Source of the DNA: Asparagopsis taxiformis
Lineage: Eukaryota > Rhodophyta > Florideophyceae > Bonnemaisoniales > Bonnemaisoniaceae
Length of the DNA stretch: 64,000 nt
Reading direction: 5' to 3'
Assembly: GCA_030407315.1 (NCBI GenBank)
Contig: JALQPE010000718.1
Coordinates: 1 to 64,000, forward strand
Part shown: piece by piece, positions 19,715-54,380 of the stretch
Position numbering within the stretch: the stretch's first letter is position 1
Layout: each line of letters starts with the position of its first letter
Program-made: the position numbers and the translations under genes
Notes under the pieces: generated by a model
What the model saw: only the letters and a program-made list of their open reading frames with translations
Told to the model about the DNA's origin: nothing
Database searches by the model: none

Positions 19715-19806
19715 TTACTGGCCAGCCCAGAACTTGTAGAATTTCGGGCAGGAAAAAAATTGCAAAATTTTATCGATTTAGGCGGTCGAAAGTGCCGTAC
19801 GGCACC
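19715..19806 (+). repeat. Partial, diverged family-A repeat
   Basis: Retains GCATTACTGGCCAGCCCAGAA, AATTTCGGGCAG and TGCCGTACGGCA, but the CTCAAAAACATG dyad is missing and the sequence runs directly into the TACTGCC field. Confidence 0.7.
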
Positions 19807-19814
19807 ACTACCGA

Positions 19815-20195
19815 GTTTGAGATTAAAAATGTAGTAAATTTACTGCCTGAGGCAGTAAAAATCACTGCCTGAGCAATGTAGTGCCTGAGGCAGTAAAATT
19901 ACTATTTTAATTTTTTCAGTTCTAGTGCCGCAGGCAGTAAAATACAAAATTTCCTGGCAGTACGGTATGTAGCAGAATTCAGTACTGTACGATAGCAAAT
20001 TCTAGTAATTTTTGCTGGTACCACAGGGCAGTAGTGCAATGCAGTGATTTTTGATGATTTCTGCAATGGAATGTACTGCCGTACAGTACTGCCCTGGCAA
20101 ATGACCTGGCATTAGAATCAGGCAGTAAAATATACTGGCTCCGGCAGTGAATTGTACTGCCTGCAAGTACTGCCTTGATAGTAATTGGTGATTGG
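19815..20195. repeat. Field of ACTGCC/GGCAGT dyads
   Basis: Many copies of ACTGCC and GGCAGT face each other across 1-3 bases, for example ACTGCCTGAGGCAGT and CTGCCGTACAGTACTGCC, mixed with AT-rich spacers ending TAAAAT. The same field occurs on a larger scale at 47640-48835. No coding content. It lies upstream of the coiled-coil gene at 20502. Confidence 0.75.
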
Positions 20196-20501
20196 TATTT
20201 TCTGAGATTCAATGTTGCAATAGTTGTCCAGGATAGGGTTGTACAATGTGTTCGCATGTGAGTTCAAGTAGAGAAGAGAGGAAACTATTCTGAAGCTACT
20301 AGTAGTGAGAAGTGTAGAGGATGCATGGTCACATGGAAATGACCGTTACAAAAAAGGTAGGAGAAAATCGGTCGTTTTCCGAGGATATGAGTAGAGTAGT
20401 TGGCATTATTTGTTACTATTGCTAGCATTCTAGTTCAGGAAAAGCGTTTGGAGTGACACTCTGCGATTGGAACGAGAGGCGAAGGCGAATTTTGACGGAA
20501 G

Positions 20502-22025: not shown

Positions 22026-22307
22026 TAATGGAGGCGTAGAAGTAAAGTTTCATAGCCTTTGAAGGGAACCGACTACTACGAGAGACTTAAGAGAAATAAA
22101 AACCTTTAGATGTGAAACTGTCTAGGATGTGCGTGGAAAAGGTGCACCGCAGCATGCTACGTACTACATGGTGTACTGGAAACAATAGCTATCGTTCTTT
22201 TTTTTCAGCTCACTCTGCGACTAGAAAGCGTCATGTCTACTACGGTTAAGAGTTTTACCCTGTCATTGAGCACGCCTCTAGTACCTTCGGGGCCTGTGCA
22301 GTCCCAT

Positions 22308-22395
22308 CCAATGCCGTAGCTCCACCTGGCAGAGTAGTGCGGAAAATAATACCGGGTATTATTTTGAGGAATATTTTGCCAAGTGGAGGGCAATC
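22308..22395. promoter_or_regulatory. Single-copy three-layer dyad site (AATAATACC-G-GGTATTATT)
   Basis: Reading outward from a central G at 22354: AATAATACC/GGTATTATT, then 15 bases on each side, then TCCACCTGG (22321-22329) facing CCAAGTGGA (22379-22387), then CCAATG (22308-22313) at the same distance as in the satellites, with a degenerate mirror TCATTCG on the right. This is the same layout as the 114- and 117-bp satellite units although the spacer sequences differ. It lies between two convergent genes, so it is not an obvious promoter. Confidence 0.8.
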
Positions 22396-22399
22396 ATTC

Positions 22400-22540
22400 G
22401 TACCGACTACAGGCGATCCCTGGACGAAACCTAAGAATAATACCCGGTATTATTTTCAGGGATATTTTGCCAAGTGGAGAGCAATCATTGTTACAGAATG
22501 CAGACAGTCCCTGGACGAAGGAACAGGCCAGAAAGATACG
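22400..22540. promoter_or_regulatory. Second dyad site, right half intact
   Basis: The AATAATACC-C-GGTATTATT dyad (22436-22454) is followed by 15 bases, CCAAGTGGA, six bases and TCATTG, matching the neighbouring site at 22308-22395. The left arm is degenerate. The two sites are direct copies about 91 bp apart, sharing GATATTTTGCCAAGTGGA-type sequence and CCCTGGACGAA. Confidence 0.7.
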
Positions 22541-22630
22541 GAGCATGTATCGATGGATACCATCGACTTAATCGAGGTTGACTAACTCTAAACAGTCTTG
22601 TAGACCCATCTAGAAAAGATAGAAAACGTT

Positions 22631-24019
22631 TTACTCGGAGGCGACATTGTGTACGGTAGGATGAGGTGCATCGACAGGGGAACTATTCTGTCCAACGATA
22701 ACGTCATGTCCAATTGTGTCTAGCTCGCTGCAGATGGTGTGTCCACTGAAAATGCATGCTGGGAGGTTCAAGTATGCAGTTCCCAACACAACATTCTTGA
22801 GAACGCGCTCGAAAGTTCCATATGGACGAGGGCCTTGAACAGGTTTCCAGGTCAGTGAGAACGAGTTGGCCAGTTTGAAATTTTTGCTGTCCGGCAGCTC
22901 AAAGTTCTCTTGCATTTCTCGACTTGAGAGGAAGCGAGCTTCCAAAGGATACGAATAGCTGCAATTGACATAGTCGTACTCATCAGATTCTCGAGTAAGA
23001 ACGACAGTACTACTCATGTTTTCAGATCTCCTGTATAAAGAGGAACCAACAAGAACAGCCTTTGTAGATGGAATAGAATCTTCTGAAGCACTGTCTGCTA
23101 GAGTTCCCAAAACTCTAATGACAGAAGACCCAGAATCGTGTCGTGTTTTCTTCCACTTGAGGATAGTAGAGTTCGTGCATGTAGACATGGAAGGAGCTAA
23201 AGTATTGCAGAGGTCATAGTATGTTCCAAAGTGGATCGATAGCTCTTTATCTCTCCCAGTTGAAATTCGAACCGCCTCGACGCTCGGCAGGAAAATTGTG
23301 TTTGGGTTGTTCTTCTCTTCGCATAGCCTGGAAAGTTGTAAAAACTGTTCAAGCGAGCAATCTGCTCTTGCCGTCACATAGTCTTGCACCAAGGAGCTCA
23401 CTTCCCGGCCTGTTTCAGACTTCGTGATTTTGGAGGACAGGGGTTTGTCCAGTTTTAAGCCAACTCTCTGGAACAGGTAGTCGCACACAATGTTTCCGAA
23501 GATGGGTCCAGTAGCGCTTGATGAACCGCGACAGTTGAAAATCTGCCTTTCGAGGTAGGATACCTTTTGAAACAGCTTGGATATGTCCTCATTGATGTTA
23601 GGACCAGGAGGACTCTCATCGCAAACTAAGCGCGGCTCGGACTTAGATCGACTCAACATGTTTTCTTTGCAGTCTTTTTTATGGAAACTGTCTTCACCCG
23701 CCGACGAGATCGTCTGCTCTAGTGCTAGTTGCTCTCCAAACCTCCAACGTAGCATGTTTCCAGAGTCAATGTCCAGCAGCGAATTGTTCTTGAATAATTT
23801 TGCTGTAGAGACTGACTGGTCGAAACCGTGTTCAGATTGATATTGCAGCGTAACAAACAAGTTTCCAGTCAAACGATGTTCTCCGGACGCGTCCGGCTTG
23901 GCAGTACTCAAAACTTTGGCGCCCCACCAAACCTTTTTCTGTTTCCTTCCTCTCGTTCGTAAACTCCATTCTACTTCAATGACTGATCCTTCGGAGACAA
24001 ACTCTGTTGGGTCTTGCAT
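22631..24019 (-). CDS. Unknown protein with a Tudor/PWWP-like N terminus
   Basis: A 462-residue frame. Residues about 8-60 (GSVIEVEWSLRT, KKVWWGAKVL, LFVTLQYQSEHGF) have the Trp-rich beta pattern of Tudor/PWWP/Agenet-type barrels, which bind methylated histone or DNA-associated proteins. This is a resemblance by eye, not an assignment. The rest is not recognised: a Ser-rich middle, then YEYVNCSY-like beta segments and a C-terminal region (RPYGTFERVLKNVVLGTAYL). It is convergent with 20502-22025. Both may be accessory genes of a transposon whose transposase is elsewhere, possibly the type at 42535-46236. The start at 24019 is the first ATG. Confidence 0.5.
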   Translation of the reverse strand: MQDPTEFVSEGSVIEVEWSLRTRGRKQKKVWWGAKVLSTAKPDASGEHRLTGNLFVTLQYQSEHGFDQSVSTAKLFKNNSLLDIDSGNMLRWRFGEQLALEQTISSAGEDSFHKKDCKENMLSRSKSEPRLVCDESPPGPNINEDISKLFQKVSYLERQIFNCRGSSSATGPIFGNIVCDYLFQRVGLKLDKPLSSKITKSETGREVSSLVQDYVTARADCSLEQFLQLSRLCEEKNNPNTIFLPSVEAVRISTGRDKELSIHFGTYYDLCNTLAPSMSTCTNSTILKWKKTRHDSGSSVIRVLGTLADSASEDSIPSTKAVLVGSSLYRRSENMSSTVVLTRESDEYDYVNCSYSYPLEARFLSSREMQENFELPDSKNFKLANSFSLTWKPVQGPRPYGTFERVLKNVVLGTAYLNLPACIFSGHTICSELDTIGHDVIVGQNSSPVDAPHPTVHNVASE

Positions 24020-24436
24020 AATGGGTATTCCCAGGAAAAGAATGGAAGAGGTATCGACTGAGGAAACAGGAAAGATGACGAAACTGTACAGCTTGTATCC
24101 GTGTGGAATGATAGAGAGAAAATTGGTAGGTTACTATTTTTATACTTGCATAACTCGTAACGGTTATAAATTACTAACACCTGTCCCAAGCGACATGGGA
24201 GACCAACATCGTGATGATCATCTCTCTTGAACATTCATCACCATATAATAAAGATCTTATTCCGAGCTGCTCGAAGCCATTACCAGTAGATTGGGTGTAT
24301 TTTTCGCTGTGGCAATATAACGGAACCTAGACGTGTATGTATAAAGAGACGCAGGGATCGAGAATGATGCAGTGAAATCAATGTGTATATTTATATACTG
24401 GTTGTAAGAACGAGTCTACAAGTTCGAACAGAAGAT
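24020..24436. other. Spacer; no gene recognised
   Basis: AT-rich intergenic sequence between divergent genes (22631-24019 on minus, 24751-28260 on plus). It must hold the minus-strand gene's promoter. No element stands out. Confidence 0.35.
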
Positions 24437-24508
24437 GAAGTCCTCTCAAGAGATTGGTTTTGAAATCTCCGATGGCAGATTTCAAACTCAATCTCTCGAG
24501 GGGACTTC
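24437..24508. repeat. 32-bp imperfect inverted repeat (hairpin) upstream of the writer
   Basis: The left arm starts GAAGTCCTCTCAAGAGATTG (24437-24468). After 8 bases the mirrored arm ends CTCTCGAGGGGACTTC (24477-24508), with few mismatches. It lies about 240 bp before the start codon of the ParB-methyltransferase-SET gene. It may be a protein-binding dyad or a small foldback element. Confidence 0.75.
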
Positions 24509-24750
24509 AAATTCAAAACAAAAATGGAAATGTCCGTTGGCGAAATAATTGTATTGAAAGGCCGCCGAAGAACCTAATTATTCCTCATTACGTACCCTAC
24601 CTAGCCAAAGTATACCTGAAAATATTCAGGTTAACTCTTTAACTGTGCATTTAAGGTTTATCAAGATTGTTGCCGAAGGTTTTTAACGCCAGGTAGGAGA
24701 GAAGATTGTTTTCTGCTGGTGGCTGATTGAGGTGAAGAATCTATTTCTCG

Positions 24751-27700
24751 ATGGCCTCTGAGAAGAGAAATCCAGCGAGCACCTCTGGGCGTCCCCTTCA
24801 TGGTGAGCGGCGCAATGGGCTATTGCACATCGACCCATTCAAGATCAAAAGATATGTCGAGATTCGAGAAATCGACTACAGGCACGTCGATGTTATTGCC
24901 GAGAGCATTCAGGTTTACGGCTACAATGACAACAACCCAATTACCGGTCGGATCATTGCCGGTGAGGTAGAGGTGCTGGATGGTGCGCATCGTTCGAAAG
25001 CTGTAATCAAGCTCATAGAGAACGGTGAGCTTCCGCGTGATTTCACTGTTCCTATGATTGAAGAAGAAGTCGACATATCTCCGATTACAAGTGCTGCTTT
25101 CCTTCTAGATAGTGTGAAAGCATCAAACGCGAACGATATGGCATCCAGGCAGAAGAGGATGACTTTCATTGAGTACCTGAATCTTACTTTGGATCTTAGA
25201 GATGGGTACTGGGAGCGAAACGCAGGTGAAAAACAAGGGAGCTCAAGCATGGTTACAATTCGCGACGTGAATATGCCATCCATTAGGCGATGGCTCGCCG
25301 TGGGATCTCAGCGCGAAGATTTGGCAGAAACTGTGCTGAGGCAGCCACAGTACGAGAGTTGCTTGTCAATTCTTCGTGTGCTTCGCCCCTACAGTCGCAT
25401 AGAAGAACCCAATCCCAAAATGGTTCGCTGTCTGTGGCAGTTGTTCTGTATTGTATGGGGAAGGCCGGTTGAAGTTCAGAACAATTTTGCGATGAAGGAG
25501 TTTCCCACATCTCTCGAGAAAAGAGCATCAGTCGGCGAGCAGTTGTTTGGGATGTCTACAAGTGGTGAAATTGCTTCTCCATTGTGTCGCGAAGTCCTCA
25601 CCTGTGAGTATTTTCGTTCTGGAAGAAGTGCACAGGGTAGAACATTAACAGAAGAAGACAAAGTATTTGGAAGGCTGATGTTTATGATTTCATTTGTGCA
25701 CATTGCCCTCACTAGACGCAGAAATGCACCCATTCGCCGGGGTAGGAAGCGTCGTAGAACTGGGAGGGATACAGAGACTTCTACATTCGCCCCTTTCCAG
25801 CGCACAAGAGCAAACGGAGAGTCTGTGGGTGTCGTTTTGGAAAGGGTCATGTCTGCCTGGGATACAACAGCGATGATTCTGGGCTTCGAAAGCGCCTACA
25901 TGATGTGTCGCCCATACATGGTTTTCGACTCTGAGAAATTCCAATTCATCTGTCTTGCTAATCGTACTGACGGGTGGGCACATCCTGACCACTACTCAGA
26001 TCTTCTGCTTCCGTCCCCGGTAGTGAAACTCCGCGAGAATGCAGGTTATCCAGGCACTTTGGATATCTCTGTTGATGCAAGGTTGAGGTCTTTGACAGAA
26101 GCCGTACTAGTGTCTGTGTATGACTGTATGATAGGCATTGATGTATTCGGATCAAGTACGAACCAGATGGAAGGGCTGCGCACTAAATTTTTCCATCAGC
26201 CTGACCGGTTCGGATTGAACGCCTTCATCGAAGCAAGAATAGAACAATCCATCGCATTGGATGGTCACGAAAGACTCAAGGTATGGAAGAACTGGAACCG
26301 TGAAATGCGTGTGAAGCCAGTTGATGTCTGCGACTTGAAAATTCTCTACGAGACTGAACAGCGCAACGCAGCATCCAGATCTCTTTCTCGAGAAAGAGAT
26401 CGTCTTGAGTCGAATGAATCAATGCAGCACAGCACTCGCCGTTTAGGTACAGGTGGAAGGAAACCTACCAATGACTCTGGATCCCAGTATACATCCAGCA
26501 TGGATGGGAGGGCTTCGTCCGCAGTGGACACGGTTATGCAAGATGTTGCGGAGGATACACCGTCAGCGGAGGCAGTGGGTGAGGAAGAGGGGGTACCGGA
26601 TCATATTGTGCAATTGAAAAAGGTCATGAAGAGATTTTGCGTGGCTTACAACTGTACAGCCTCGAGGTTAGTGCACCGGGTTAACACTGATTCCATTGGC
26701 ATGCTTTCAGGGAATACTATTGATGGACAAGCACAACTTGTGCTCACCGATCCACCCTTCAACACGCGGAGGGAGAAAGGCAAGACCAATTCAGACTATG
26801 ATGACATCAATAGCGCACAAATGTTTCGTACTGGAAAGGACATTTCTCGAATGCTGCGCCCTGGAGGACATGCCCTGATATTTTCCAGTATCAAACAGTT
26901 GGTTGGGTGGGGAGAAGCTCTTCAAAATGCAGAAAGCGGGGAACAATCCATGCGTACAGACGATGTTCCTCTCATTCTAAGCCGTCGTCCCTACGTATTC
27001 ATCCAAAACCCAATGAACAAATCGTGTTCATTACACAACATTCACGAGTTTGTTGTGCACAGTTTCAAACGTGGGATGGGAGCTGCCGCGTTTGAAATGG
27101 TTGATTATTCTTTGCATAACCGTGACCTTTCACGACATCCAGGGTACGTGAACGCAATCGACAACTGCCCAAAGCTCGGACCTGGTGAGTCATTGAACTT
27201 CGAAGACAAAAGGCTACGTGCGGAGCAGAAGCCTCTGTCCATACTTCGAGAGCTTATTTCAAGGTTTTCAAAGCCAGGAGACATTGTGGTAGATCTATTC
27301 TCCGGAACGTATTCTACTGCAATAGCTTGCATGACAATGAGAGATGGTCTGTATCGCAAGTTTATTGGATGTGAAAAAGACGCCACATGCCATGGATCAG
27401 CTCAGCCGTTGTTGCTGGATTGCTTTGTTAGGCAAGGTCGAGATGGAGTTTTTGGGGAGGCAACCAAAAATGACATATCGAGTATTCTCGCTAACAAAGA
27501 ATGGAATTACTCGATAAGGAGCAATGTAGGAAGTGAAAGACTTCGACATCGAAGTGATGCGCCTGATGGATTCCCGTCGGTATCTTCACTACCACTGCAT
27601 ATGTTGCGATTTGTCTCCTCTGTTGCGCGGGATCAAAGCATGCTCCGAAGACTTGCCGAAGTCCCAATGAATGAATGGGGCGTAGAAGATTTAGGCAAGG

Positions 27701-28260
27701 TTTTCTCCGTTGACCCTGAGATGATGCTTGCAGTAGATGCCTCCTTTCACAACGTTATTGTTGCTGCATCGACAGTTCGAGAGGGAGGATTGGGGGTTTT
27801 TGCCGCAGAAGATTTAGAGAGGGGCTCTGTTGTTGGATGGTATAATGGGACAATTTTATACGGGAAGATTGGGGAGAATGAACCGCAACGCAGTCGCTTG
27901 TACGGACCGGACGGGTTCGGTTGTACTGGTGAAAGATTCCAAAACTTCAACATGGAGATGGAGACCAGTGTCATCGGAGAAGAAGCACCGGTCGACAAGA
28001 TATATCTTGTACCAGCGGAATACAATGTCTGCAGCTACCTCAACGACAGTAGGACCATTGACGGAATGGAGAGAGTTGCAAATGTGCAACGCAGAAAAAA
28101 TGCAGAGTTCCGAGTTCACAAAGACGTCAATCCTACTTGCGACTTCAAGTATGCAGTAGCAAAACCTGATCTCATCCTAGCGCAGGTTGTAGTAGATGTT
28201 CGAGCTGGGGAAGAGATATTCGTTGACTATGGATCGCGCTACTGGACTGCAGAGAAGTAG
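24751..28260 (+). CDS. ParB-like/DNA methyltransferase/SET triple-fusion 'writer'
   Basis: A 1,169-residue intronless protein. Residues about 25-155 form a ParB/sulfiredoxin-like domain (HVDVIAESIQVYGYND, IAGEVEVLDGAHRSKAVIKL with the DGxHR signature). A helical region leads to a methyltransferase of beta order: QLVLTDPPFNTRREKGK (Asp667-Phe670, motif IV), LRPGGHALIFSS, AEQKPLSILRELI, then GDIVVDLFSGTYSTAIACM (Asp848, AdoMet site) and FIGCEKD. DPPF favours N6-adenine over N4-cytosine as target, by family knowledge. The C-terminal SET domain (about 995-1165) has EGGLGVFAAEDLERG, GWYNGTILYG, SYLNDSRTIDG in place of the canonical NHSC motif, NAEFRV and GEEIFVDYG. Expected role: bind DNA through the ParB-like domain, methylate it, and methylate a chromatin lysine. 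A 34-copy dyad satellite starts 125 bp downstream, followed by a ParB-dioxygenase gene. The start Met is the first in frame. The TAG stop is ordinary. Confidence 0.9.
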   Translation: MASEKRNPASTSGRPLHGERRNGLLHIDPFKIKRYVEIREIDYRHVDVIAESIQVYGYNDNNPITGRIIAGEVEVLDGAHRSKAVIKLIENGELPRDFTVPMIEEEVDISPITSAAFLLDSVKASNANDMASRQKRMTFIEYLNLTLDLRDGYWERNAGEKQGSSSMVTIRDVNMPSIRRWLAVGSQREDLAETVLRQPQYESCLSILRVLRPYSRIEEPNPKMVRCLWQLFCIVWGRPVEVQNNFAMKEFPTSLEKRASVGEQLFGMSTSGEIASPLCREVLTCEYFRSGRSAQGRTLTEEDKVFGRLMFMISFVHIALTRRRNAPIRRGRKRRRTGRDTETSTFAPFQRTRANGESVGVVLERVMSAWDTTAMILGFESAYMMCRPYMVFDSEKFQFICLANRTDGWAHPDHYSDLLLPSPVVKLRENAGYPGTLDISVDARLRSLTEAVLVSVYDCMIGIDVFGSSTNQMEGLRTKFFHQPDRFGLNAFIEARIEQSIALDGHERLKVWKNWNREMRVKPVDVCDLKILYETEQRNAASRSLSRERDRLESNESMQHSTRRLGTGGRKPTNDSGSQYTSSMDGRASSAVDTVMQDVAEDTPSAEAVGEEEGVPDHIVQLKKVMKRFCVAYNCTASRLVHRVNTDSIGMLSGNTIDGQAQLVLTDPPFNTRREKGKTNSDYDDINSAQMFRTGKDISRMLRPGGHALIFSSIKQLVGWGEALQNAESGEQSMRTDDVPLILSRRPYVFIQNPMNKSCSLHNIHEFVVHSFKRGMGAAAFEMVDYSLHNRDLSRHPGYVNAIDNCPKLGPGESLNFEDKRLRAEQKPLSILRELISRFSKPGDIVVDLFSGTYSTAIACMTMRDGLYRKFIGCEKDATCHGSAQPLLLDCFVRQGRDGVFGEATKNDISSILANKEWNYSIRSNVGSERLRHRSDAPDGFPSVSSLPLHMLRFVSSVARDQSMLRRLAEVPMNEWGVEDLGKVFSVDPEMMLAVDASFHNVIVAASTVREGGLGVFAAEDLERGSVVGWYNGTILYGKIGENEPQRSRLYGPDGFGCTGERFQNFNMEMETSVIGEEAPVDKIYLVPAEYNVCSYLNDSRTIDGMERVANVQRRKNAEFRVHKDVNPTCDFKYAVAKPDLILAQVVVDVRAGEEIFVDYGSRYWTAEK

Positions 28261-28384
28261 GACAGTATACGCGTCCAATTACAGATATCAAGAGTACCAT
28301 CAGCAATAAAAAGTCTTGCATCTGAACTCGTACAACGTTGTAGTACTACAATCTACCTGAGCGATAATAACAGACTTTCATTTG

Positions 28385-31300
28385 CTGAGCGGTGCCAGTC
28401 AGCCCACGCCCAATGATAGTGCTGCACCTGGGCTTTGCCATACCAAAATAATACCGGGTATTATTTCGGGTGTGGCCAGCCCAAGTGCAGCTCTGCCATT
28501 GGCTGTCATGAACGCAGCGGCAGCCAATGGAATTGCTGCACCTGGGCTTTGCCATGCCAAAATAATACCGGGTATTATTTTGGGTGTGGCCAGCCCAAGT
28601 GCAGCTCTGCCATTGGCTGTCATGAACGCAGCGGCAGCCAATGGAATTGCTGCACCTGGGCTTTGCCATGCCAAAATAATACCGGGTATTATTTCGGGTG
28701 TGGCCAGCCCAAGTGCAGCTCTGCTATTGGCTGTCATGAACACAGCGGCAGCCAATAGAATTGCTGCACCTGGGCTTTGCCATGCCAAAATAATACCGGG
28801 TATTATTTTGGGTGTGGCCAGCCCAAGTGCAGCAATTCTATTGGCTGTCATGAACGCAGCGGCAGCCAATGGAATTGCTGCACCTGGGCTTTGCCATACC
28901 AAAATAATACCGGGTATTATTTTGGGTGTGGCCAGCCCAAGTGCAGCTCTGCTATTGGCTGTCATGAACACAGCGGCAGCCAATAGAATTGCTGCACCTG
29001 GGCTTTGCCATGCCAAAATAATACCGGGTATTATTTTGGGTGTGGCCAGCCCAAGTGCAGCTCTGCTATTGGCTGTCATGAACGCAGCGGCAGCCAATGG
29101 AATTGCTGCACCTGGGCTTTGCCATACCAAAATAATACCGGGTATTATTTCGGGTGTGGCCAGCCCAAGTGCAGCTCTGCCATTGGCTGTCATGAACGCA
29201 GCGGCAGCCAATGGAATTGCTGCACCTGGGCTTTGCCATGCCAAAATAATACCGGGTATTATTTTGGGTGTGGCCAGCCCAAGTGCAGCTCTGCTATTGG
29301 CTGTCATGAACGCAGCGGCAGCCAATGGAATTGCTGCACCTGGGCTTTGCCATGCCAAAATAATACCGGGTATTATTTTGGGTGTGGCCAGCCCAAGTGC
29401 AGCTCTGCTATTGGCTGTCATGAACACAGCGGCAGCCAATAGAATTGCTGCACCTGGGCTTTGCCATGCCAAAATAATACCGGGTATTATTTTGGGTGTG
29501 GCCAGCCCAAGTGCAGCAATTCTATTGGCTGTCATGAACGCAGCGGCAGCCAATGGAATTGCTGCACCTGGGCTTTGCCATACCAAAATAATACCGGGTA
29601 TTATTTTGGGTGTGGCCAGCCCAAGTGCAGCTCTGCTATTGGCTGTCATGAACACAGCGGCAGCCAATAGAATTGCTGCACCTGGGCTTTGCCATGCCAA
29701 AATAATACCGGGTATTATTTTGGGTGTGGCCAGCCCAAGTGCAGCTCTGCTATTGGCTGTCATGAACGCAGCGGCAGCCAATGGAATTGCTGCACCTGGG
29801 CTTTGCCATACCAAAATAATACCGGGTATTATTTCGGGTGTGGCCAGCCCAAGTGCAGCTCTGCCATTGGCTGTCATGAACACAGCGGCAGCCAATAGAA
29901 TTGCTGCACCTGGGCTTTGCCATGCCAAAATAATACCGGGTATTATTTTGGGTGTGGCCAGCCCAAGTGCAGCTCTGCTATTGGCTGTCATGAACGCAGC
30001 GGCAGCCAATGGAATTGCTGCACCTGGGCTTTGCCATGCCAAAATAATACCGGGTATTATTTTGGGTGTGGCCAGCCCAAGTGCAGCTCTGCTATTGGCT
30101 GTCATGAACACAGCGGCAGCCAATAGAATTGCTGCACCTGGGCTTTGCCATGCCAAAATAATACCGGGTATTATTTTGGGTGTGGCCAGCCCAAGTGCAG
30201 CAATTCTATTGGCTGTCATGAACGCAGCGGCAGCCAATGGAATTGCTGCACCTGGGCTTTGCCATACCAAAATAATACCGGGTATTATTTTGGGTGTGGC
30301 CAGCCCAAGTGCAGCTCTGCTATTGGCTGTCATGAACACAGCGGCAGCCAATGGAATTGCTGCACCTGGGCTTTGCCATGCCAAAATAATACCGGGTATT
30401 ATTTTGGGTGTGGCCAGCCCAAGTGCAGCTCTGCTATTGGCTGTCATGAACGCAGCGGCAGCCAATGGAATTGCTGCACCTGGGCTTTGCCATACCAAAA
30501 TAATACCGGGTATTATTTCGGGTGTGGCCAGCCCAAGTGCAGCTCTGCCATTGGCTGTCATGAACACAGCGGCAGCCAATAGAATTGCTGCACCTGGGCT
30601 TTGCCATGCCAAAATAATACCGGGTATTATTTTGGGTGTGGCCAGCCCAAGTGCAGCTCTGCTATTGGCTGTCATGAACGCAGCGGCAGCCAATGGAATT
30701 GCTGCACCTGGGCTTTGCCATGCCAAAATAATACCGGGTATTATTTTGGGTGTGGCCAGCCCAAGTGCAGCTCTGCTATTGGCTGTCATGAACACAGCGG
30801 CAGCCAATAGAATTGCTGCACCTGGGCTTTGCCATGCCAAAATAATACCGGGTATTATTTTGGGTGTGGCCAGCCCAAGTGCAGCAATTCTATTGGCTGT
30901 CATGAACGCAGCGGCAGCCAATGGAATTGCTGCACCTGGGCTTTGCCATACCAAAATAATACCGGGTATTATTTTGGGTGTGGCCAGCCCAAGTGCAGCT
31001 CTGCTATTGGCTGTCATGAACACAGCGGCAGCCAATAGAATTGCTGCACCTGGGCTTTGCCATGCCAAAATAATACCGGGTATTATTTTGGGTGTGGCCA
31101 GCCCAAGTGCAGCTCTGCTATTGGCTGTCATGAACGCAGCGGCAGCCAATGGAATTGCTGCACCTGGGCTTTGCCATACCAAAATAATACCGGGTATTAT
31201 TTCGGGTGTGGCCAGCCCAAGTGCAGCTCTGCCATTGGCTGTCATGAACACAGCGGCAGCCAATAGAATTGCTGCACCTGGGCTTTGCCATGCCAAAATA

Positions 31301-32275
31301 ATACCGGGTATTATTTTGGGTGTGGCCAGCCCAAGTGCAGCAATTCTATTGGCTGTCATGAACGCAGCGGCAGCCAATGGAATTGCTGCACCTGGGCTTT
31401 GCCATACCAAAATAATACCGGGTATTATTTTGGGTGTGGCCAGCCCAAGTGCAGCTCTGCTATTGGCTGTCATGAACACAGCGGCAGCCAATAGAATTGC
31501 TGCACCTGGGCTTTGCCATGCCAAAATAATACCGGGTATTATTTTGGGTGTGGCCAGCCCAAGTGCAGCTCTGCTATTGGCTGTCATGAACGCAGCGGCA
31601 GCCAATGGAATTGCTGCACCTGGGCTTTGCCATACCAAAATAATACCGGGTATTATTTCGGGTGTGGCCAGCCCAAGTGCAGCTCTGCCATTGGCTGTCA
31701 TGAACGCAGCGGCAGCCAATGGAATTGCTGCACCTGGGCTTTGCCATGCCAAAATAATACCGGGTATTATTTTGGGTGTGGCCAGCCCAAGTGCAGCTCT
31801 GCTATTGGCTGTCATGAACGCAGCGGCAGCCAATGGAATTGCTGCACCTGGGCTTTGCCATACCAAAATAATACCGGGTATTATTTTGGGTGTGGCCAGC
31901 CCAAGTGCAGCTCTGCTATTGGCTGTCATGAACGCAGCGGCAGCCAATGGAATTGCTGCACCTGGGCTTTGCCATGCCAAAATAATACCGGGTATTATTT
32001 TGGGTGTGGCCAGCCCAAGTGCAGCTCTGCTATTGGCTGTCATGAACGCAGCGGCAGCCAATGGAATTGCTGCACCTGGGCTTTGCCATGCCAAAATAAT
32101 ACCGGGTATTATTTTGGGTGTGGCCAGCCCAAGTGCAGCTCTGCCATTGGCTGTCATGAACGCAGCGGCAGCCAATGGAATTGCTGCACCTGGGCTTTGC
32201 CATGCCAAAATAATACCGGGTATTATTTTGGGTGTGGCCAGCCCAAGTGCAGCTCTGCCATTGGCTGCCAGGTTT
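28385..32275. repeat. Satellite, 34 x 114 bp, with six-unit higher-order repeat
   Basis: 34 palindrome centres are spaced exactly 114 bp apart (first AAAATAAT at 28445, last at 32207). Each unit is a three-layer dyad: GCCAATGG, 6 bases, TGCACCTGG, 15 bases, AATAATACC, G, then the mirror image with 15- and 6-base spacers and CCAAGTGCA. Variant bases (GCCATTGG or GCTATTGG; AATTCTATTGG; AACGCAGC or AACACAGC; TTTCGGG or TTTTGGG; CATACC or CATGCC) recur in a six-unit cycle (684 bp) over units 4-25, with a four-unit step near the right end. Since 114 is divisible by three, both strands stay open for over 1,260 codons. I treat that as a by-product of repetition. Confidence 0.95.
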
Positions 32276-32280
32276 GCATC

Positions 32281-32598
32281 TCAACTACAGTTAGTATACT
32301 AAGAAGAACAATTCAAGACCTTGGTTACTCGAGTGATGTGGAATTGTGGCAGTCTTGCAAAACTGTGCCATGCATGTAGGAAAGGAAAAGAGATCAGTCT
32401 GTACGATGTAAGGTGTAGAAGCTATGCGGGGTGAGAGGTAGAGGAACTCTAATAGTGCAGTAGACTGACCGTGCTAATATTTTCAAAGTCGTGAATAGGA
32501 GTAGATTTAGTTGTGGTAAAGGAAGTATACTACCGAAGCTAGCTTAGGATTGGCAGATGCTGCCTGTAGAGGGAGAGGCAAAGCAGTATTCTTGCAGA
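32281..32598. other. Spacer 3' of the eraser; no gene recognised
   Basis: About 320 bp between the satellite and the stop codon of the dioxygenase gene. It probably includes that gene's 3' untranslated region. Confidence 0.35.
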
Positions 32599-35577: not shown

Positions 35578-36008
35578 TGAAGGATGATGGAAAGCAGGAA
35601 TGGAGAGAAGCTTGATTGAGTGTACGACCCCGATAACGACGATACAGAGACGATTAAGATAGATTTATTTCGCTACTGCAGTCTGATAAAGGATCAAACG
35701 TGAACAATCCGTTTCAACTCTGATTTCAATTTTTTGTTTATTTCTAGACCACTTGACTCAGATCAAGAGTAATACTCGAAATTCAGTTAATTTCTGCGGC
35801 CAAATACAATCGCTATACGACGAGTTCACACTCAAAGTGGCTAAACAGGTACGAGTTGGTCATGGTGATTACCCCAAAACCACTCAAGTAATAACTACAT
35901 AATGCTGAAGTCACATACTTCCCAGCATTTTGCACCAACTCGTGGAGCTGATGCGTACATACCAAATGCATCTGTATTCAACATGAACCACGAATAAGTG
36001 GGCTTCGG
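35578..36008. promoter_or_regulatory. Probable 5' region of the eraser gene
   Basis: 430 bp between the eraser start codon and the 117-bp satellite. It should contain the eraser promoter. It is AT-rich around 35640-35820, with no element I can identify. Confidence 0.35.
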
Positions 36009-37450
36009 CCAATGAGTGCACTGCACCTGGCTTGAGAAACTAGGAATAATACCCGGTATTATTTTGGCCTCCCAAACGCCAGGTGCACCAACGCCATTGG
36101 CCGGTGGTAGTTTGGACAACCTCGGCCAATGGGGTTGGTGCACTTGGTCTATACCGACCCAAAATAATACCGGGTATTATTTTGGCCTCCCAAACGCCAG
36201 GTGCACCAACGCCATTGGCCGAGGGTATCCGGCTACCACCGGCCAATGGGGTTGGTGCACTTGGTCTATATCGACCCAAAATAATACCGGGTATTATTTT
36301 GGCCTCCCAAAAGCCAGGTGCACCAACGCCATTGGCCGGTGGTAGTTTGGACAACCTCGGCCAATGGGGTTGGTGCACTTGGTCTATACCGACCCAAAAT
36401 AATACCGGGTATTATTTTGGCCTCCCAAACGCCAGGTGCACCAACGCCATTGGCCGAGGGTATCCGGCTACCACCGGCCAATGGGGTTGGTGCACTTGGT
36501 CTATACCGACCCAAAATAATACCGGGTATTATTTTGGCCTCCCAAACGCCAGGTGCACCAACGCCATTGGCCGAGGGTATCCGGCTACCACCGGCCAATG
36601 GGGTTGGTGCACTTGGTCTATACCGACCCAAAATAATACCGGGTATTATTTTGGCCTCCCAAACGCCAGGTGCACCAACGCCATTGGCCGAGGGTATCCG
36701 GCTACCACCGGCCAATGGGGTTGGTGCACTTGGTCTATATCGACCCAAAATAATACCGGGTATTATTTTGGCCTCCCAAAAGCCAGGTGTACCAACGCCA
36801 TTGGCCGGTGGTAGTTTGGACAACCTCGGCCAATGGGGTTGGTGCACTTGGTCTATACCGACCCAAAATAATACCGGGTATTATTTTGGCCTCCCAAACG
36901 CCAGGTGCACCAACGCCATTGGCCGAGGGTATCCGGCTACCACCGGCCAATGGGGTTGGTGCACTTGGTCTATACCGACCCAAAATAATACCGGGTATTA
37001 TTTTGGCCTCCCAAACGCCAGGTGCACCAACGCCATTGGCCGAGGGTATCCGGCTACCACCGGCCAATGGGTTGGTGCACTTGGTCTATATCGACCCAAA
37101 ATAATACCGGGTATTATTTTGGCCTCCCAAAAGCCAGGTGTACCAACGCCATTGGCCGGTGGTAGTTTGGACAACCTCGGCCAATGGGGTTGGTGCACTT
37201 GGTCTATACCGACCCAAAATAATACCGGGTATTATTTTGGCCTCCCAAACGCCAGGTGCACCAACGCCATTGGCCGAGGGTATCCGGCTACCACCGGCCA
37301 ATGGGGTTAGTGCACTTGGTCTATACCGACCCAAAATAATACCGGGTATTATTTTGGCCTCCCAAAAGCCAGGTGCACCAACGCCATTGGCTGAGGTTAT
37401 CCGGAGTACCCCCAGGCAATGGGGTTGGTGCACTTGGTCTACACCCACCC
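36009..37450. repeat. Satellite, about 12 x 117-118 bp, same dyad layout
   Basis: Twelve AATAATACC-S-GGTATTATT centres run from about 36055 to 37340 at 117-118 bp, with a decayed thirteenth edge near 37455 (TATACCCGGCC). Each unit reads GCCAATGG, 6 bases, TGCACTTGG, 15 bases, AATAATACC, G, then GGTATTATT, 15 bases, CCAGGTGCA, 6 bases, CCATTGGC. These are the same motifs and spacings as in the 114-bp satellite, with unrelated spacer sequence. Two inter-dyad variants alternate: GGTGGTAGTTTGGACAACCT, and GAGGGTATCCGGCTACCACC. Confidence 0.95.
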
Positions 37451-37775
37451 AACTTTATACCCGGCCAGACTCCTGTTCTCAGGAACTGAAAATTTTACCG
37501 GGGATAGTAAACGATGTATTATAATACCAGGTTTTACTATCTGCTATCGTTTCTCGCATCTAATGAAGAGGTTTAGAATTTGCAGCTCTTGTAGCTAGAG
37601 CTTTCTGTGGAGAATAGCTTTCTGCATGTGGTGTTTGTTACATTTGTGAAGTTGATCTGACTATATAAAGAATCCATGCAGTATCTCTTTTATCATGTTC
37701 TATTGGAATTGTGTTTATTACTCTACGGATTCATACCCAACTAAGGCTTCAACACGGCTGGACAGATGCCCTTCA
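37451..37775. other. Spacer; no gene recognised
   Basis: About 325 bp between the satellite and the 3' end of the next eraser. Nothing recognisable apart from a decayed half-site (TTTATACCCGG) at the left edge. Confidence 0.35.
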
Positions 37776-40700
37776 TCACTTCAATTTCGAATTGCCCTCC
37801 CAATGTCCAACGACATATTCTCCTTCTTCACTTTGATGCTGCTCAGTTTTGAGGAATATGTGAGATCGGATCGGGAACTTGTATTGAAGACCCTTATTGC
37901 TCTCAAATCCTTCCTCGTGGTGATAAACATCCCCTCGGCAGACAAGAACAGAATATGGTGGTACTTCACACCTCTTCATTGGAACTCTGTATAACTCTCT
38001 GTTGGGATGGGATAAACAGACATGACTGTAGGGTGCAAGCACGAGGCCGAATCCATCTGCGCCGCTTGACATCATGAAGTAGGATGGCGGAGAAGGGGGA
38101 CTGTTAACTTCATCGATTCCCACTTCATAGTCTGTATGTCCAGCACGAGGTTTAGTCCGCTCTCCAGTCAGCACTAAAGTAGTTCCAGTGCTGGGGAAGG
38201 CCATCGGGTCCTTCCCACTAGTCCTCAATTCCAAACATTCCGCACAAATACCTAGACCGAGCTCAACAATCATCTTCTTCCGATAGAGATTATTATTGTT
38301 ATCCTCGAGGTCATCACATAAGCTCTTCCGCTTTGTTATAAAGATTCCTCTGCCCTTCTCACCTTCTTCATCAGAGTTTTTCCCATCCATCATAGCCATG
38401 CACCACGGTGTCCAGTCCGGATCTCTGCGGGTGTCACCGGATTCAGAGTTCTTCTTGGCATCCTCGAGACGTTCCTCAAACAACGCAGAAAAATGAAGGA
38501 GCAGTTCGTGGATCGCATCTGCAGTAGTAGAAGACTTGAATATTCCGTCCAGAATTGTAAACCCAACCAAGTCTATTTCATTTCGTTTCTCTCGGAAATA
38601 AGCCCTCGAGAGAAACTCAGCGGAAACATTTTGTGCCGAATAGGCACTCGCTGCTGCTTCAGCGACCTCGGCTCGAAGCGTATCGACCAGTTTCCCATTC
38701 ACATAGTATTTCACTCGACTGTCGGGATGAATGATAACAGGCAGTTTCGCTTCTATACCTTCCTCCACATCTTTGTCAGGGACATCATTTTGTTGCCTGT
38801 CCGAATACTGACCTCCTTGAACCGCGTGGACTGCAGCGTCTTTGCCGGATTGCAAATTTGCGTCTTCACGCATCTTTTGCTTCTTCTTCTGCCGCGGCCT
38901 GCTGGTATCCTCTCCCACCAGGTCAATAACCTCTTGAGGGGTGACATCCACCAATTTCCGTTTGGATCGTAGAATCATTGGCGGCGTCTCCGTATTCCTC
39001 GGCTTTGCCTTTAAGGGCACGAAACCACTGCTGTGCTTGGCTGTCATCAACTTCCTAGGCGTAGAACTGGTAACAGGTGTTTCCGTGTCCTCCAGCTCAG
39101 GTAAAACAGGTAGGCCGACATCCGCTGTAGATAACATAGCGTCTCCAGTGCCATCACCCTGATTTCGTACACCTTTCATCGGGTCCTCCGTTGTCCTTCC
39201 AGAAGAATGTTCGGGACATTCTTCGCGGACATCTTTCGTTCCAGACCCATCGCTCTTCCTAGATTCAGGACCTCCTTCACCATCTCGACCAGTTCTTGGA
39301 TGACCAACTGACATATTCGCCGGCGACTTTCCACCCTGCTCTGGTCTGAGCGTGGCACTTCCGGCTGCCACTGGGCTAGGTGATTGTTGCAGGTCATTTT
39401 CATCACCGTGGTCATTTCTTCCTCGATTTGCACCAGCTGGTTCAAGCTCTGGAGTTCCTACGTTCTTCTGCAACACATCCCCAACTTCACAATCTCCAGG
39501 TTTCGAAGAATTGTTCTCGGTAGGCGCAGTAGGCACTGCGCGGTCCGTTGTAACCTGCTTTGCGCTTTCGGAATCTGCCGCTTTCCCTGTCGCCTCTTCA
39601 CCAACCTGTGTTGCAGCACCGACCTCAGCGTTAACACGATCCGATATTTCCAGACTGCCCTGTGTCTGCTGTTGGGTAAGTACATTTGGACTCTGTACCA
39701 CGTCCGAGCGATCAATGGCAGCATTTGAAGTATCACCATACGATGCGGATTGTTGTCGTGGTTGAGGTGCAGTATTCCCTTCCAAGGATTTTCGCCTAGT
39801 CCGCCTTTCCTGCACACCTATTTCAGGCGCGACGGAATGGTCGAGAGAGTCATCCGATAGAATTGGGCCGTTGAAAACCACATAACGGATTTCTTTCATC
39901 ATAGACCGCGTCAATGCTGCACGTATACCTCTCCCAGTTGGTGCGTCGGAAGGATAGAAATCTTTGAGGACAGTCAAAATGCGATATCGTATGGTTTTTC
40001 GTGTTCGTCCACCTGGCTCCGGTACTTCATGTAACTTCCTGAAACATGGATGAGGTGAGGAATGCCAGGAGTTTTCTTTTCTTTCCGTACAGCTTTCTCA
40101 AGTATGTCATATATTTCACACATGCTGTAGCACCACTTTTGCGCGCATGTCTTTAGACTTATACCACCATCTCCTTTCCTACGTTTCCACATCGTCCACA
40201 TTGCAGTGAGCTCTAGAATGACAAGTTTGGTGTCCACCGAAGCTTTTCGAAACGCAGAAGCGAATAGGACGTCCACAGTGCATCCCTGCATATTCTTCGA
40301 GTCTGGCGGACTAGTTTCAGTTGCAAATCGACTTGGGATAGCTGACCAATGTTCGAACGCCGGGTTATTTACGTCTCCGAAGCCCTGCGCAATCGAAACG
40401 TACTTCATCATGATTCCTTCCTGACAACCTGGAATGACCTTGTTCTCGACTACAACTTTTGTGCACACATTTACCTTCGCCTTCATCAAGCCCTTCATCA
40501 TCATGAACTTCATGACCGTACAGACGTGGTCAGCAATAGAAACTTCTATCACGTCATGAGTCTTTTCGTTCAGCTTCTGCGATATTCGCATCACTTCAAG
40601 AGGATGAAACATTTCACGGGTTCCAGGTGGTCGGATGAAGTCAACGCTAATGCTCCTCAGTCTCCATCGATCAGCAACTGTCGGTTTGTTTTCCACAATC

Positions 40701-41305
40701 GACTGCAAAGCGCTGATACGATGACCTCCATCAATGCACTGCAGTTTCTTCCGTCCGTCTGACCCCATTGTTTCACAGATGGTCATTCGGGTGCCAGTTT
40801 CCAGAAACCCCTCGGTAGATATTTTGCTGACCAGATCGCGCACTCTGGCCTCCTGCACAAGACGAGAAGTTGATTCCGGTTTGGCAACATCTAGCGGATT
40901 GATCATTTTAGGTTCAGTCCTGCATTCGACAATGTTGATGTCAATCCCCATCACAGACTCTTCTGATGCTTCCATGCCAGCAGGACTCCCCTCGCCTTCA
41001 CGGACGTTAGACCTCTCCCTGTTTTTCGATTTCACCGTCCCAGGAGTAGATGGAAAGCGTAGAGTGTTTTTCCCAGATGGTGATATATCACCAAGGGTTT
41101 TTGCTGCCTCTATCATGGCAGCGTCTGCTCCCTGAATGGGTGTCTGGCTATCTGCCGTCTCCCTTCCCGCTGCAGACGGAGTCCCTCCATCACCAGAACC
41201 TCCGGAGGGTGTTTTATCACCGCCTACCGTCGTTGCAAGTCTCTCTGCAACGCTTTCGACGGTATCCTTTGGTTCCGCAGCGCGCTCAGTGTCGCTTCCG
41301 GCCAT
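37776..41305 (-). CDS. ParB-like/dioxygenase 'eraser', one frameshift at about 39975
   Basis: Two minus-strand frames read as one gene of about 1,175 residues. The first (41305 to 39974) has a charged start, a ParB-like domain with CIDGGHRISALQSI, DHVCTVMKFMM, and the helical motif VSIAQGFGDVNNPAFEHWSAIP shared with the other erasers. It ends four bases inside the second frame, at a TTTTGA next to a T-run. The second frame (37776 upstream to at least 39977, no ATG at its edge) has a long Ser/Glu/Asp linker and the dioxygenase domain: FPSTGTTLVLTGERTKPR, His and Asp ligands in AGHTDYEV (codons at 38136-38138 and 38130-38132), YSHVCLSHP, distal His in GDVYHHEEGF, and FPIRSHIFL. The absence of a natural start and the matching homology on both sides favour a one-base indel (mutation or sequencing error) over two genes. 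It lies between the 117-bp and 104-bp satellites. Confidence 0.82.
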
Positions 41306-41565
41306 TGCAAAGATTTGGACGCGTAGAGAAGCCGTTCAGGATGACAAAGACACCTTTTCTCTCCGACTACACGATCAAGAGATATTCCTCTTTCAAGGTG
41401 GTATTTGGCGGGAAACGATCTCCCTACACGTTTAAACGTGAAATATCAGTTATTGATTCACCTTCCACGCGCTCCAATTGTATTCGGCCATCTGTCATTC
41501 CTCGACGAAGGACTTCCCACACACAATTCCTTCGTTCCCAAAACCATCCCATTGCCATGAATCAT
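41306..41565. promoter_or_regulatory. Probable 5' region of the second eraser
   Basis: 260 bp between the start codon of the eraser and the 104-bp satellite. No element identified. Confidence 0.3.
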
Positions 41566-42275
41566 AGTACTCCACTTGTCACTGGAGCCAGAAAACTATA
41601 CCGGGTATTATTTTCCACTGCATTGGCCAGGTGCCGGCTCCCCATTGGCAGCAGACAGCAATCAGTCACAATACTCCACTTGTCACTGGAGCCAGAAAAC
41701 TATACCGGGTATTATTTTCCACTGCATTGGCCAGGTGCCGGCTCCCCATTGGCAGCAGACAGCAATCAGTCACAATACTCCACTTGTCACTGGAGCCAGA
41801 AAACTATACCGGGTATTATTTTCCACTGCATTGGCCAGGTGCCGGCTCCCCATTGGCCAGCAGACAGCCATCAGTCACAATACTCCACTTGTCACTGGAG
41901 CCAGAAAACTATACCGGGTATTATTTTCCACTGCATTGGCCAGGTGCCGGCTCCCCATTGGCAGCAGACAGCAATCAGTCACAATACTCCACTTGTCACT
42001 GGAGCCAGAAAACTATACCGGGTATTATTTTCCACTGCATTGGCCAGGTGCCGGCTCCCCATTGGCCAGCAGACAGCCATCAGTCACAATACTCCACTTG
42101 TCACTGGAGCCAGAAAACTATACCGGGTATTATTTTCCACTGCATTGGCCAGGTGCCGGCTCCCCATTGGCCAGCAGACAGCCATCAGTCACAATACTCC
42201 ACTTGTCACTGGAGCCAGAAAATTATACCGGGTATTATTTTCCACTTCATTGGCCAGGTGCCAGCTCTCCATTGG
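41566..42275. repeat. Satellite, 7 x 104-105 bp, looser version of the dyad
   Basis: Seven units have centres at about 41600, 41704, 41808, 41913, 42017, 42122 and 42227 (TATACCGGGTATTATT). The left arm is degenerate (AACTATACC). The second layer is CCACTTG and CCAGGTGCC at 14 rather than 15 bases, and the third layer is CCATTGGC on the right only. The shared motifs at nearly the same spacing link this array to the 114- and 117-bp satellites. Units differ by presence of GGCAGCAG or GGCCAGCAG. Confidence 0.93.
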
Positions 42276-42534
42276 ATTATGCGAACTCAACTTTGTGGAA
42301 CTAGGAGTCCTGCAACTCGCGGCTCCATCTCTAGTACCAATGGCATCATACGTACGTAAGTGCGTACGCTCTTCGCAAAACACACTTTATTTGTGCGCAT
42401 GGAACAAAATCCCACACTATTCTTCAAACGACATGTACAAATTTTGTATAGCATTTGTTGGAAGACTTGATCAGGACTGCTGCTAAATGAATTACGAAAG
42501 TTTACTGATGTAATAAACACTGTGCTGGAACACT
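42276..42534. other. Spacer between satellite and transposase; no gene recognised
   Basis: About 260 bp with a CGTACGTAAGTGCGTACG palindrome near 42350. No gene recognised. Confidence 0.4.
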
Positions 42535-46236: not shown

Positions 46237-47074
46237 CTCTTCTCTTTGGATTCGAGAGAACTTTGCACAAATTGTAGATTAATGTCAACTAGTAGGCAAC
46301 TAATGAGATGGTATCCGTCTCTTTTTAACCAGGCCACTGTAATAGTTTATAGTACCTATATTTTCTTACCGTTACATCTTATCGAAAACTTCACACTGAA
46401 TAGTGTCCTACCTAACTCAAGGAACAGGTGACTTGATTTCCCATGTTGGGTTCTTCAGCGATCTTTAATGCCTCCAACGATTCCTGCTTCCTTTTCTGAA
46501 TGAAATACACGAATCATTTACAATTTAGCTTCAGTACATGGTATAATAGGCCTCAATAGTAATCTTGTTATGGTAATAAACTATATATAGATGAGAACAC
46601 GGTTGCAATTCTCTTTCGGATTGTCTACTACTCTAATTTACAGCATTTATTCGATGTTTCTCCTTCAGTATGCAGCTAAACATCAATACCAAGACTTTTA
46701 GGTTGGTTTGACATTGCGTAGGGGCATGATTTCTATTTCTGCTAATTTATCACGTCCAGAAAATTTGACAGATCATCCGCTGCCAAATCATCTGCCACAT
46801 CATCGTCTGCCAAATCATCTGCCTTCCAGTTACGACGAGGTCATTATGAGTGGATGAGCTGTCTATTTAAGGCTGTTGATGCGCGACGTATAGGACCATT
46901 TCATCATCCGGTTATCATGAAGATGACAGGTAAGGCTGGTACGTTGTCGAGTAGGTATCTTTCCCCTCTCTCATTTCTTTCCACATGCTTTCCATGAAAG
47001 ATAGTGCACTAACCATAAATATCGTTCTTCGCTGATCCTATTCTAGTCTATTGATTGCAAATGATTCTGGCATA
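46237..47074. other. No gene recognised; short repeats at about 46765-46825
   Basis: AT-rich spacer. Near 46765-46825 the short motifs GCCAAATCATCTGCC and CATCATCGTCTG are repeated several times. No protein or RNA gene found. Confidence 0.45.
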
Positions 47075-47142
47075 GGTATTGGTTATAGGTTGGAATGACG
47101 AAAGCTTGCAAGCTTTCGTCATTCCAACCTACAACCAATACC
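47075..47142. repeat. 68-bp palindrome with a single mismatch
   Basis: The left arm (47075-47108) begins GGTATTGGTTATAGG and ends AAAGCTTG. The right arm (47109-47142) mirrors it with one A/G mismatch and no loop. This is a strong cruciform candidate, perhaps the fused ends of two element copies. It is unrelated in sequence to the other dyads. Confidence 0.9.
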
Positions 47143-54109: not shown

Positions 54110-54380
54110 ATAGCTTAACAACTACTACTTTGGTAAACAATTATCGAGAATATAATCATCTCCTTTATCACTTCCAATCTATGAACCTAGTATAATGTAC
54201 TTCCGTTCCATGCTTTCAAACTAGATTGTCCATTCCCTCGTGGGTTGGAGCATGATTTCCAGGACGATTCCCTCACATCTCTAGACTCGATGGTCTATGG
54301 TAGAAATAGCAGAACAATTGGGTTTGTACGTGCTTCATCGCCTACTTGCTTCCGGTAATGGGTGGACGTGCACGATACAC
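54110..54380. other. Spacer 3' of the eraser
   Basis: Short AT-rich spacer, no gene recognised. It probably contains the 3' end of the eraser transcript. Confidence 0.35.

Follow-up and report, generated by a model that had tools for sequence, protein, structure and literature searches.

What could be the purpose of satellite units in which three motifs are nested in mirror image, at fixed distances, around one centre? The question is raised by a stretch of 64,000 nucleotides of the red alga Asparagopsis taxiformis (positions 1 to 64,000 of contig C718, JALQPE010000718.1; hereafter the window); the eukaryotic assembly to which it belongs has 3156 contigs and a total length of 141,494,207 bases. 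All four dyad arrays of the window, at 22.3 kb and with 114-, 117- and 104-bp units, lie within one CACTA-type transposon (19806-48845, forward strand; 29,040 bp). We propose that the dyads are the target arrays of a self-recognising epigenetic system, comparable to the VANC/VANDAL anti-silencing system and operated by other proteins, and assign this reading a probability of about 0.42.

Each dyad is centred on a palindromic core, AATAATACC-N-GGTATTATT, which occurs in the window in 48 exact copies and in 7 copies with one or two mismatches (55 dyads in total), and is absent from 100 shuffles of the window. Further layers become visible by eye when 51 bases on either side of the cores are aligned. 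We scanned the window with no preset distance, by searching for CARGTG 10-40 bases outward from core-like halves. Among 113 such halves CARGTG was found in 109, at an offset of 25 bases in 94 and of 24 in 15, and at no other offset; of the four halves lacking it, one is the left half of the dyad at 22445 and three are chance half-cores at 502, 17553 and 46690. This second layer is present in 109 of the 110 halves of the 55 dyads, and the three-layer concentric dyad with fixed spacing, first described in the first-pass annotation of this DNA, is real. The third layer, CATTGG 15 bases beyond CARGTG, is exact in 63 of the 109 halves; 38 have a single mismatch, and 8 differ at three or four positions. 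If one mismatch is allowed, the starts of a CCAAT box and an E-box-like CARGTG are thus separated by 15 bases in 101 of the 109 halves. The eight deviating halves comprise seven left halves of 104-bp units and one 117-bp unit with the spacer one base shorter. Layers 2 and 3 keep an almost constant distance from one another. The distance from the core to layer 2 had been given as exactly 15 bases in the 114- and 117-bp units; overall it is mostly 15, but 14 occurs as well, even on one side only. None of the 109 layered halves lies outside the arrays, and 20 of 20 Markov-randomised windows contain none.

The four arrays differ in size and completeness. Array A, previously taken for a single site, has two cores 91 bp apart: its first dyad (22307-22401, centre 22354) possesses three layers on both sides, the right CCAAT layer with one mismatch, and its second (22436-22492, centre 22445) carries layers 2 and 3 on the right only. 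Array B (28409-32265) includes 34 dyads in 114-bp units with centres at 28456-32218, and array C (36008-37391) 12 dyads in 117-bp units with centres at 36054-37344. Array D (41557-42276) consists of 7 dyads in 104/105-bp units (centres 41603-42230); the 14-base spacing that had been noted for it is kept, but the CCAAT layer is absent on the left.

In the whole genome the core has 2343 exact copies and its reversed control none; the count is equal on both strands because the core is a palindrome. The pattern CCAATGG-N(2-9)-TGCACYTGG matches 2389 genome places, and among the matches listed the spacer is 6 bases in 99 of 100 and 5 bases in one, in agreement with the 6 bases originally reported between layers 2 and 3. 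The pattern GCACYTGG-N(10-18)-AATAATACC matches 4215 genome places, with a spacer of 15 in 85 and of 14 in 15 of the 100 matches listed. Reversed controls of both spaced patterns are absent from the genome. The 100 listed places of each pattern are not independent, being drawn from few contigs, with half or more from one array on C19.

Arrays outside this sample, located on C9 with the exact core and on C59 and C393 with a core variant, form satellites of 118 bp (E) and 116 bp (F). In their seven consensus units, 14 of 14 halves carry CARGTG at 24 or 25 bases and, 15 bases beyond it, a box resembling ATTGG, in some cases with one change. The core alone led to these arrays; the search for CARGTG covered a span of 20-30 bases, which left its exact place in that span as the free variable. 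A single unit of the F arrays can combine spacing 15 on one side with 14 on the other. The sequence logo of 22 half-sites from 11 arrays reads GGTATTATTTT, CCARGTGCAG and CCATTGGC, separated by about 13 and by 5 free bases, respectively. On contigs C59, C181, C206, C212, C238 and C422 a recurring type has oppositely oriented 116-bp cores some 7.4 kb from each other.

Do the layers reflect constraint or common descent? We aligned the 11 arrays at the dyad centre, taking the best of two orientations (55 pairs), and distinguished four satellite groups: A (22.3 kb), D (104 bp), F (116 bp) and B/C/E (114, 117 and 118 bp). In the 37 of 55 pairs that join different groups, identity is 0.74-0.91 within the layers and 0.20-0.38 elsewhere, the mean outside the layers being 0.287 versus 0.283 in shuffled letters. 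The earlier claim of conserved motifs in diverged spacers thus holds between groups, and the genome search with spaced patterns that had been suggested as its check finds the distances between the layers fixed among the matches listed. The satellites had also been called unrelated, with homology along their full length named as the finding that would reduce the layers to descent. Such homology is seen for the 114- and 117-bp units only, which are 42% identical outside the layers with one turned round, a value that 0.5% of shuffles reach. Among B, C and E units identity outside the layers is 0.42-0.57 (48-57% for 114- and 117- versus 118-bp units); therefore the 114- and 117-bp units are old relatives, diverged homologues rather than unrelated satellites.

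It could accordingly be argued that the arrays have no function, being satellites expanded in one element whose shared layers record descent only. The homology of B, C and E fits this explanation, as do the young arrays, which show no layer constraint, and expansion of transposon-internal repeats is a known theme (PMC9659126). However, A, D, F and B/C/E are at shuffled level outside the layers and 74-91% identical inside them, and tandem descent leaves layers mirrored within a unit with unlike spacers unexplained; we consider an account by descent alone quite improbable.

The mirror symmetry is confined largely to the layers. Over the 11 arrays, left-right identity reaches 88% in the core, 92% in layer 2 and 86% in layer 3, compared with 30% for the main spacer and 39% for the sequence outside. 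The difference narrows when just the four window arrays are considered (core 95, layer 2 82, layer 3 72%; main spacer 39%, short spacer 35%, outside 46%). The simplest account of this pattern would be a two-fold symmetric reader of duplex DNA. The units might instead act as RNA or DNA hairpins, serving as terminators, 3'-end signals or a small-RNA source at convergent genes, and their location at gene 3' ends would suit such a role. Compared with 100 mononucleotide shuffles, units of A (-36.4 versus -20.5 kcal/mol), B (-57.5 versus -24.6), C (-56.1 versus -22.5) and F (-47.7 versus -18.9) fold well, but the D unit folds no better than chance (-20.1 versus -17.7, standard deviation 3.1). Moreover, the main spacers are 30% symmetric, the layers are fixed in their letters and not in pairing alone, and core positions 6-8 change one-sidedly without compensation in D, F and one E consensus. 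A hairpin function therefore appears improbable.

The element carrying the arrays starts with CACTACCGAG at 19806 and ends with CAGTAGTG at 48845, ends that are also found in other copies, and is flanked by a 2-bp target duplication, AC. At the left end, the match starts at 19806 in 7 of 9 scored copies and within 19799-19806 in all nine; the exact left-end pattern matched the window only, because the other copies seen differ by one A. The right-terminal 23-mer occurs at 293 genome places, including the older-array contigs C9, C59 and C393. This 23-mer is common to more copies than the window family shows. An empty target form, GCCGTACGGCAC-ACCCCCATCTC, was found elsewhere in the window. We tried seven other copies for target duplications: the left stretch of C107 missed the end, and C385, C142 and C522 are without a left flank. 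Among the four copies with both flanks, three have a 2-bp duplication (window AC, C582 AT, C337 TG) and C75 has none.

The termini CACTA...TAGTG and a short target duplication, in the range of 2 to 5 bp, agree with the CACTA/EnSpm (CMC) group; duplications of 2 to 5 bp characterize the wider CMC clade (PMC12730594). The 3-bp duplication of classical EnSpm was not seen, the copies with a duplication showing 2 bp, and the element is therefore assigned to the CACTA or CMC type and not to EnSpm proper. Counts of genome copies are lower bounds, taken from the matches listed. The gene P0002 has at least 46 scored copies (39 matched as a single piece and 7 as two), 96-100% identical, 44 of the 46 without stops in the matched part; P0001 has at least 40, all 40 scored without stops and about 100% identical. 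The transposon family is young, with at least 46 copies of one gene.

Near the termini, 19822-20200 is dense in ACTGCC/GGCAGT repeats, including inverted repeats, and the same repeats fill 47640-48843. These regions bear on the idea that the dyads serve in synapsis or excision, as binding sites for a protein that the element uses in transposition, such as a transposase partner comparable to TnpA of En/Spm. TnpA binds repeated motifs near the En/Spm ends, which, with the CACTA type of the element and the symmetry of the dyads, speaks for such a role. Yet the termini have dense repeats of their own, different from the dyads, where transposase sites are expected, and the dyads lie at least 2.5 kb from the element ends, so that we hold a transposition role to be a long shot.

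Within the window the dyads are confined to the element, and within the element to particular intervals. The order along it is P0008 (forward), array A, P0007 (reverse), P0001 (forward), array B, P0002 (reverse), array C, P0003/P0004 (reverse), array D and P0006 (reverse). Dyads are found in all four internal intervals that receive a gene 3' end and in none of the three others (Fisher 1/35 = 0.029, a post hoc figure from small numbers); the divergent gap 24020-24750 and both element ends are without dyads. Array B is open in one frame per strand, and the long open reading frames (ORFs) crossing it (28382-32302 forward and 28399-32208 reverse, over 1260 codons) were rejected as genes, because 114 is a multiple of 3 (38 codons) and the unit is without stops. 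The number of array-B units, estimated from P0001-P0002 gene distances on 21 contigs, ranges from about 2 to 34, the window being highest; estimates of 1.7, 3.4, 5.5 and 15.3 are far from whole numbers, and other length changes must therefore occur. In the flanks examined of other fetched copies, an exact B core occurs one or more times in 29 of 29, and a C core in 28 of 29.

The location also bears on the strongest rival, in which the arrays are enhancers bound by host factors: NF-Y on CCAAT, a basic helix-loop-helix protein on CARGTG and a third dimeric factor on the core. The transposon would then borrow host activators and need no protein of its own. This rival is serious, and the strongest one, because layer 3, GCCAATGG, reads as a CCAAT box whose flanks fit the NF-Y consensus and layer 2, of the form CANNTG, as an E-box, because genes for NF-YA (one locus, 83 bits) and helix-loop-helix (HLH) proteins (four loci) are present in the genome, and because a comparable pair is known in human cells. 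To our knowledge, the core matches no known host factor, which counts against the rival, as do the position of the arrays at gene 3' ends and their absence from the divergent promoter gap 24020-24750. The arrays examined share contigs with the transposon right end or its genes, and no separate search of host promoters was made. A study of human cells describes co-bound CCAAT and E-box sites spaced precisely 17 or 18 bp (PMC7046753); the centres in the dyads are 15.5 bp apart, a comparable fixed pair but with a spacing unlike the human one. We judge a host-factor enhancer to be unlikely on balance, though well worth holding in view.

The self-recognition reading looks to the proteins of the element. 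P0001 (24751-28260, forward) combines a ParB-like N part (about 38-131), an N6_N4 DNA methyltransferase (662-879) with a DPPF motif, which we take to be of the adenine type, and a SET domain (1013-1161). P0002 (32599-35577, reverse; 992 aa) has an N part with a DGGHR motif, a Pro/Ser/Thr linker and a C part with the pattern HTD...YH...RSH. P0004 (39974-41305, reverse; 443 aa) is 31% identical to the N part of P0002 and P0003 (37776-39977, reverse; 733 aa) has a C part 37% identical to that of P0002; the two share four bases, lie in different frames and jointly match P0002, and P0003 probably continues P0004 as one gene split by an intron or frameshift. The C parts of P0002 and P0004/P0003 are, from the pattern read by eye, 2-oxoglutarate dioxygenase-like. 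P0006 (42535-46236, reverse; 1233 aa) carries C(2)C (position 620) and H(3)H (position 928) and is a probable CMC-type transposase under the rule of C(2)C and H(3-4)H motifs (PMC12730594); it has no Pfam match, and the placement of the motifs relative to catalytic residues is not part of the correspondence.

In the self-recognition reading the dyads would be cis-acting array targets for a two-fold symmetric protein assembly that marks the transposon as self. The palindromic core, 19-23 bp, would be read by a dimer, and the CARGTGCAG-N5-CCATTGGC block, 24-25 bases out on each side, by the same protein or by partners, the complete site spanning about 95 bp. Placed in noncoding intervals at gene 3' ends, the arrays could grow or shrink in length because every unit would be a complete site. 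The assembly would most likely gather on the element its own enzymes, namely the ParB-like/DNA methyltransferase/SET fusion and one or two paralogues with the dioxygenase-like pattern, and so keep its chromatin expressed against host silencing. Direct results of the analysis are the layered sites, their between-group constraint, symmetry and location, and the mobile element; we infer protein binding, the identity of the binder and the anti-silencing outcome from the anatomy, which asks for a symmetric reader of duplex DNA, and from the VANC precedent. It can be speculated further that the bacterial-type ParB-like/methyltransferase/SET fusion, with dioxygenase-like erasers, is recruited to the variable-number arrays of 95-bp dyads and writes a combined DNA and histone mark on the element, by which silencing is escaped or controlled; we regard this more specific proposal as doubtful.

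Several results weigh against self-recognition by these proteins. The Pfam and PHROG scans identified no DNA-binding domain in the candidate binders. The first-pass annotation had called the products of the genes at 24751 and 32599 ParB-like: for P0001 one PHROG ParB-like family gives an E value of 6.3e-6 and four more give 0.047-0.21, but the Pfam scan contains no ParB domain; for P0002 and P0004 neither Pfam nor PHROG has a ParB match, the label going back to the DGGHR motif seen by eye, and a profile comparison of their N part with P0001 yields 10% probability and an E value of 0.003. The dioxygenase-like part has no useful Pfam, PDB or homologue match, and no relatives were found for residues 60-460 and 640-992 of P0002. 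The letters of the layers resemble host-factor sites (E-box-like CARGTG and CCAAT box), and the short spacer is itself 62% left-right symmetric over the 11 arrays. In the young arrays the layers are not clearly more conserved than the inner spacers: variation is 0.026 versus 0.027 in array B (223 of 240 units kept) and 0.007 versus 0.024 in array C (129 of 164 kept), so that the case for constraint depends on comparing the groups with one another. It speaks for the reading that the E118 arrays of C9 and C59 adjoin a decayed P0001-like N part (55-56%), but the two relics share changes and represent one lineage, not two independent cases; both are without the DGAHR motif, and that of C59 has stops. 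The 6.5-kb piece beside the C393 arrays has no match to P0001-P0008.

The relatives of P0001 allow a limited comparison. Among seven, including one identical, the ParB-like end is present in three (the identical one, P0010 at 43% and P0011 at 33% identity) and absent from P0012 to P0015. Just outside the element, P0005 (window 14937-18149) is a methyltransferase-SET protein that lacks the ParB-like end; its identity to P0001 is 23-28%, and no dyads lie near it. As a single case, it is in line with a link between the ParB-like end and the dyads. The same end beside iterated palindromes recalls bacterial and phage ParB-parS, and the arrays could be parS-like partition or centromere sites that maintain the element or an episomal form. 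Against this, the copies lie in different flanks with target duplications in three of four, and no ParA or helix-turn-helix (HTH) match was found among the element proteins in the Pfam and PHROG scans. Unlike ParB-parS, moreover, the arrays belong to a eukaryotic transposon with no segregation role found, and we consider a partition function very improbable.

The closest parallel is with Arabidopsis VANDAL21 and VANDAL6. There, VANC proteins recognise short motifs within the tandem repeats that noncoding VANDAL regions contain and remove silencing, and the repeats and the proteins change together (PMC5735166, PMC10398659). Noncoding tandem repeats around a motif, diverging fast, are likewise found here. 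Unlike VANDAL, the present element is of the CACTA and not the Mutator type, its site is a 95-bp mirror-symmetric structure of three layers instead of a 9-base motif, and a methyltransferase-SET fusion stands in place of VANC, its binding to the dyads being our proposal. No Mutator-type element with a VANC protein was identified, the ends being CACTA and P0007 and P0008 being judged by Pfam, not by direct comparison with VANC. The VANC21 motif YAGTATTAY resembles GGTATTAT and is one base off the core half GGTATTATT over eight, probably by chance.

The element shares CACTA ends, subterminal repeats and probable transposase motifs with En/Spm and its relatives, including those of the red alga Chondrus crispus, whose large CACTA families are described as 16-20 kb with 4-5 ORFs (PMC6431247). 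It differs in its 29 kb, its internal dyad arrays, its ParB-like methyltransferase-SET gene and a target duplication of 2 and not 3 bp. DNA transposons with DNA- or histone-modifying genes have precedents, since fungal transposons carry TET/JBP dioxygenases and HarbingerS and MuDR carry SET genes (PMC12730594); the present element is distinguished from them by the methyltransferase-SET fusion, by a pattern that is dioxygenase-like only and by dedicated repeated sites. Composite NF-Y/E-box sites also join a CCAAT box to an E-box at a fixed distance; the dyads differ in having 15.5 bp between centres versus 17-18, in being mirrored around a third motif and in lying in satellites. The literature searched, mostly without subscription papers, contains no description of the dyad or of a ParB-methyltransferase-SET transposon protein.

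If the self-recognition reading is true, the element would join VANC/VANDAL as another transposon that controls its own chromatin through a sequence address, and the DNA-methyltransferase/SET fusion would be its likely effector. The layers persist in satellite groups whose spacers are randomised, and the site can therefore be reduced to a minimal, directly testable sequence. A long specific site with an epigenetic writer could serve as a tool, and the dyad arrays make the origin and length variation of transposon-internal satellites testable.

A viral origin of the dyads was considered and rejected. The core is present in two viral-contig stretches (own-genome records may be excluded), one within a long ORF (L055) and one of which 221 bases were examined (L056); neither has the layers, and the viral contigs have no P0010 relative.

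The remaining genes of the element, P0008 (20502-22025, forward; 507 aa) and P0007 (22631-24019, reverse; 462 aa), were assigned no function, both being below every Pfam cut-off. The divergent gap between P0007 and P0001 contains a 38-bp inverted repeat with an 8-base loop (24431-24514). Another, of 39 bp with 95% complementarity and no loop, lies at 47070-47147 between the probable transposase gene and the right end. Next to further dyads, locus L070 (C393:5000-11500) has at 5899-6501 a frame that by eye is phosphofructokinase-like, perhaps a captured or host gene. Downstream of the element (48846-56062), the repeat hosting the insertion is present as long direct copies; 48846-49809 and 55015-55977, for example, are 97% identical.

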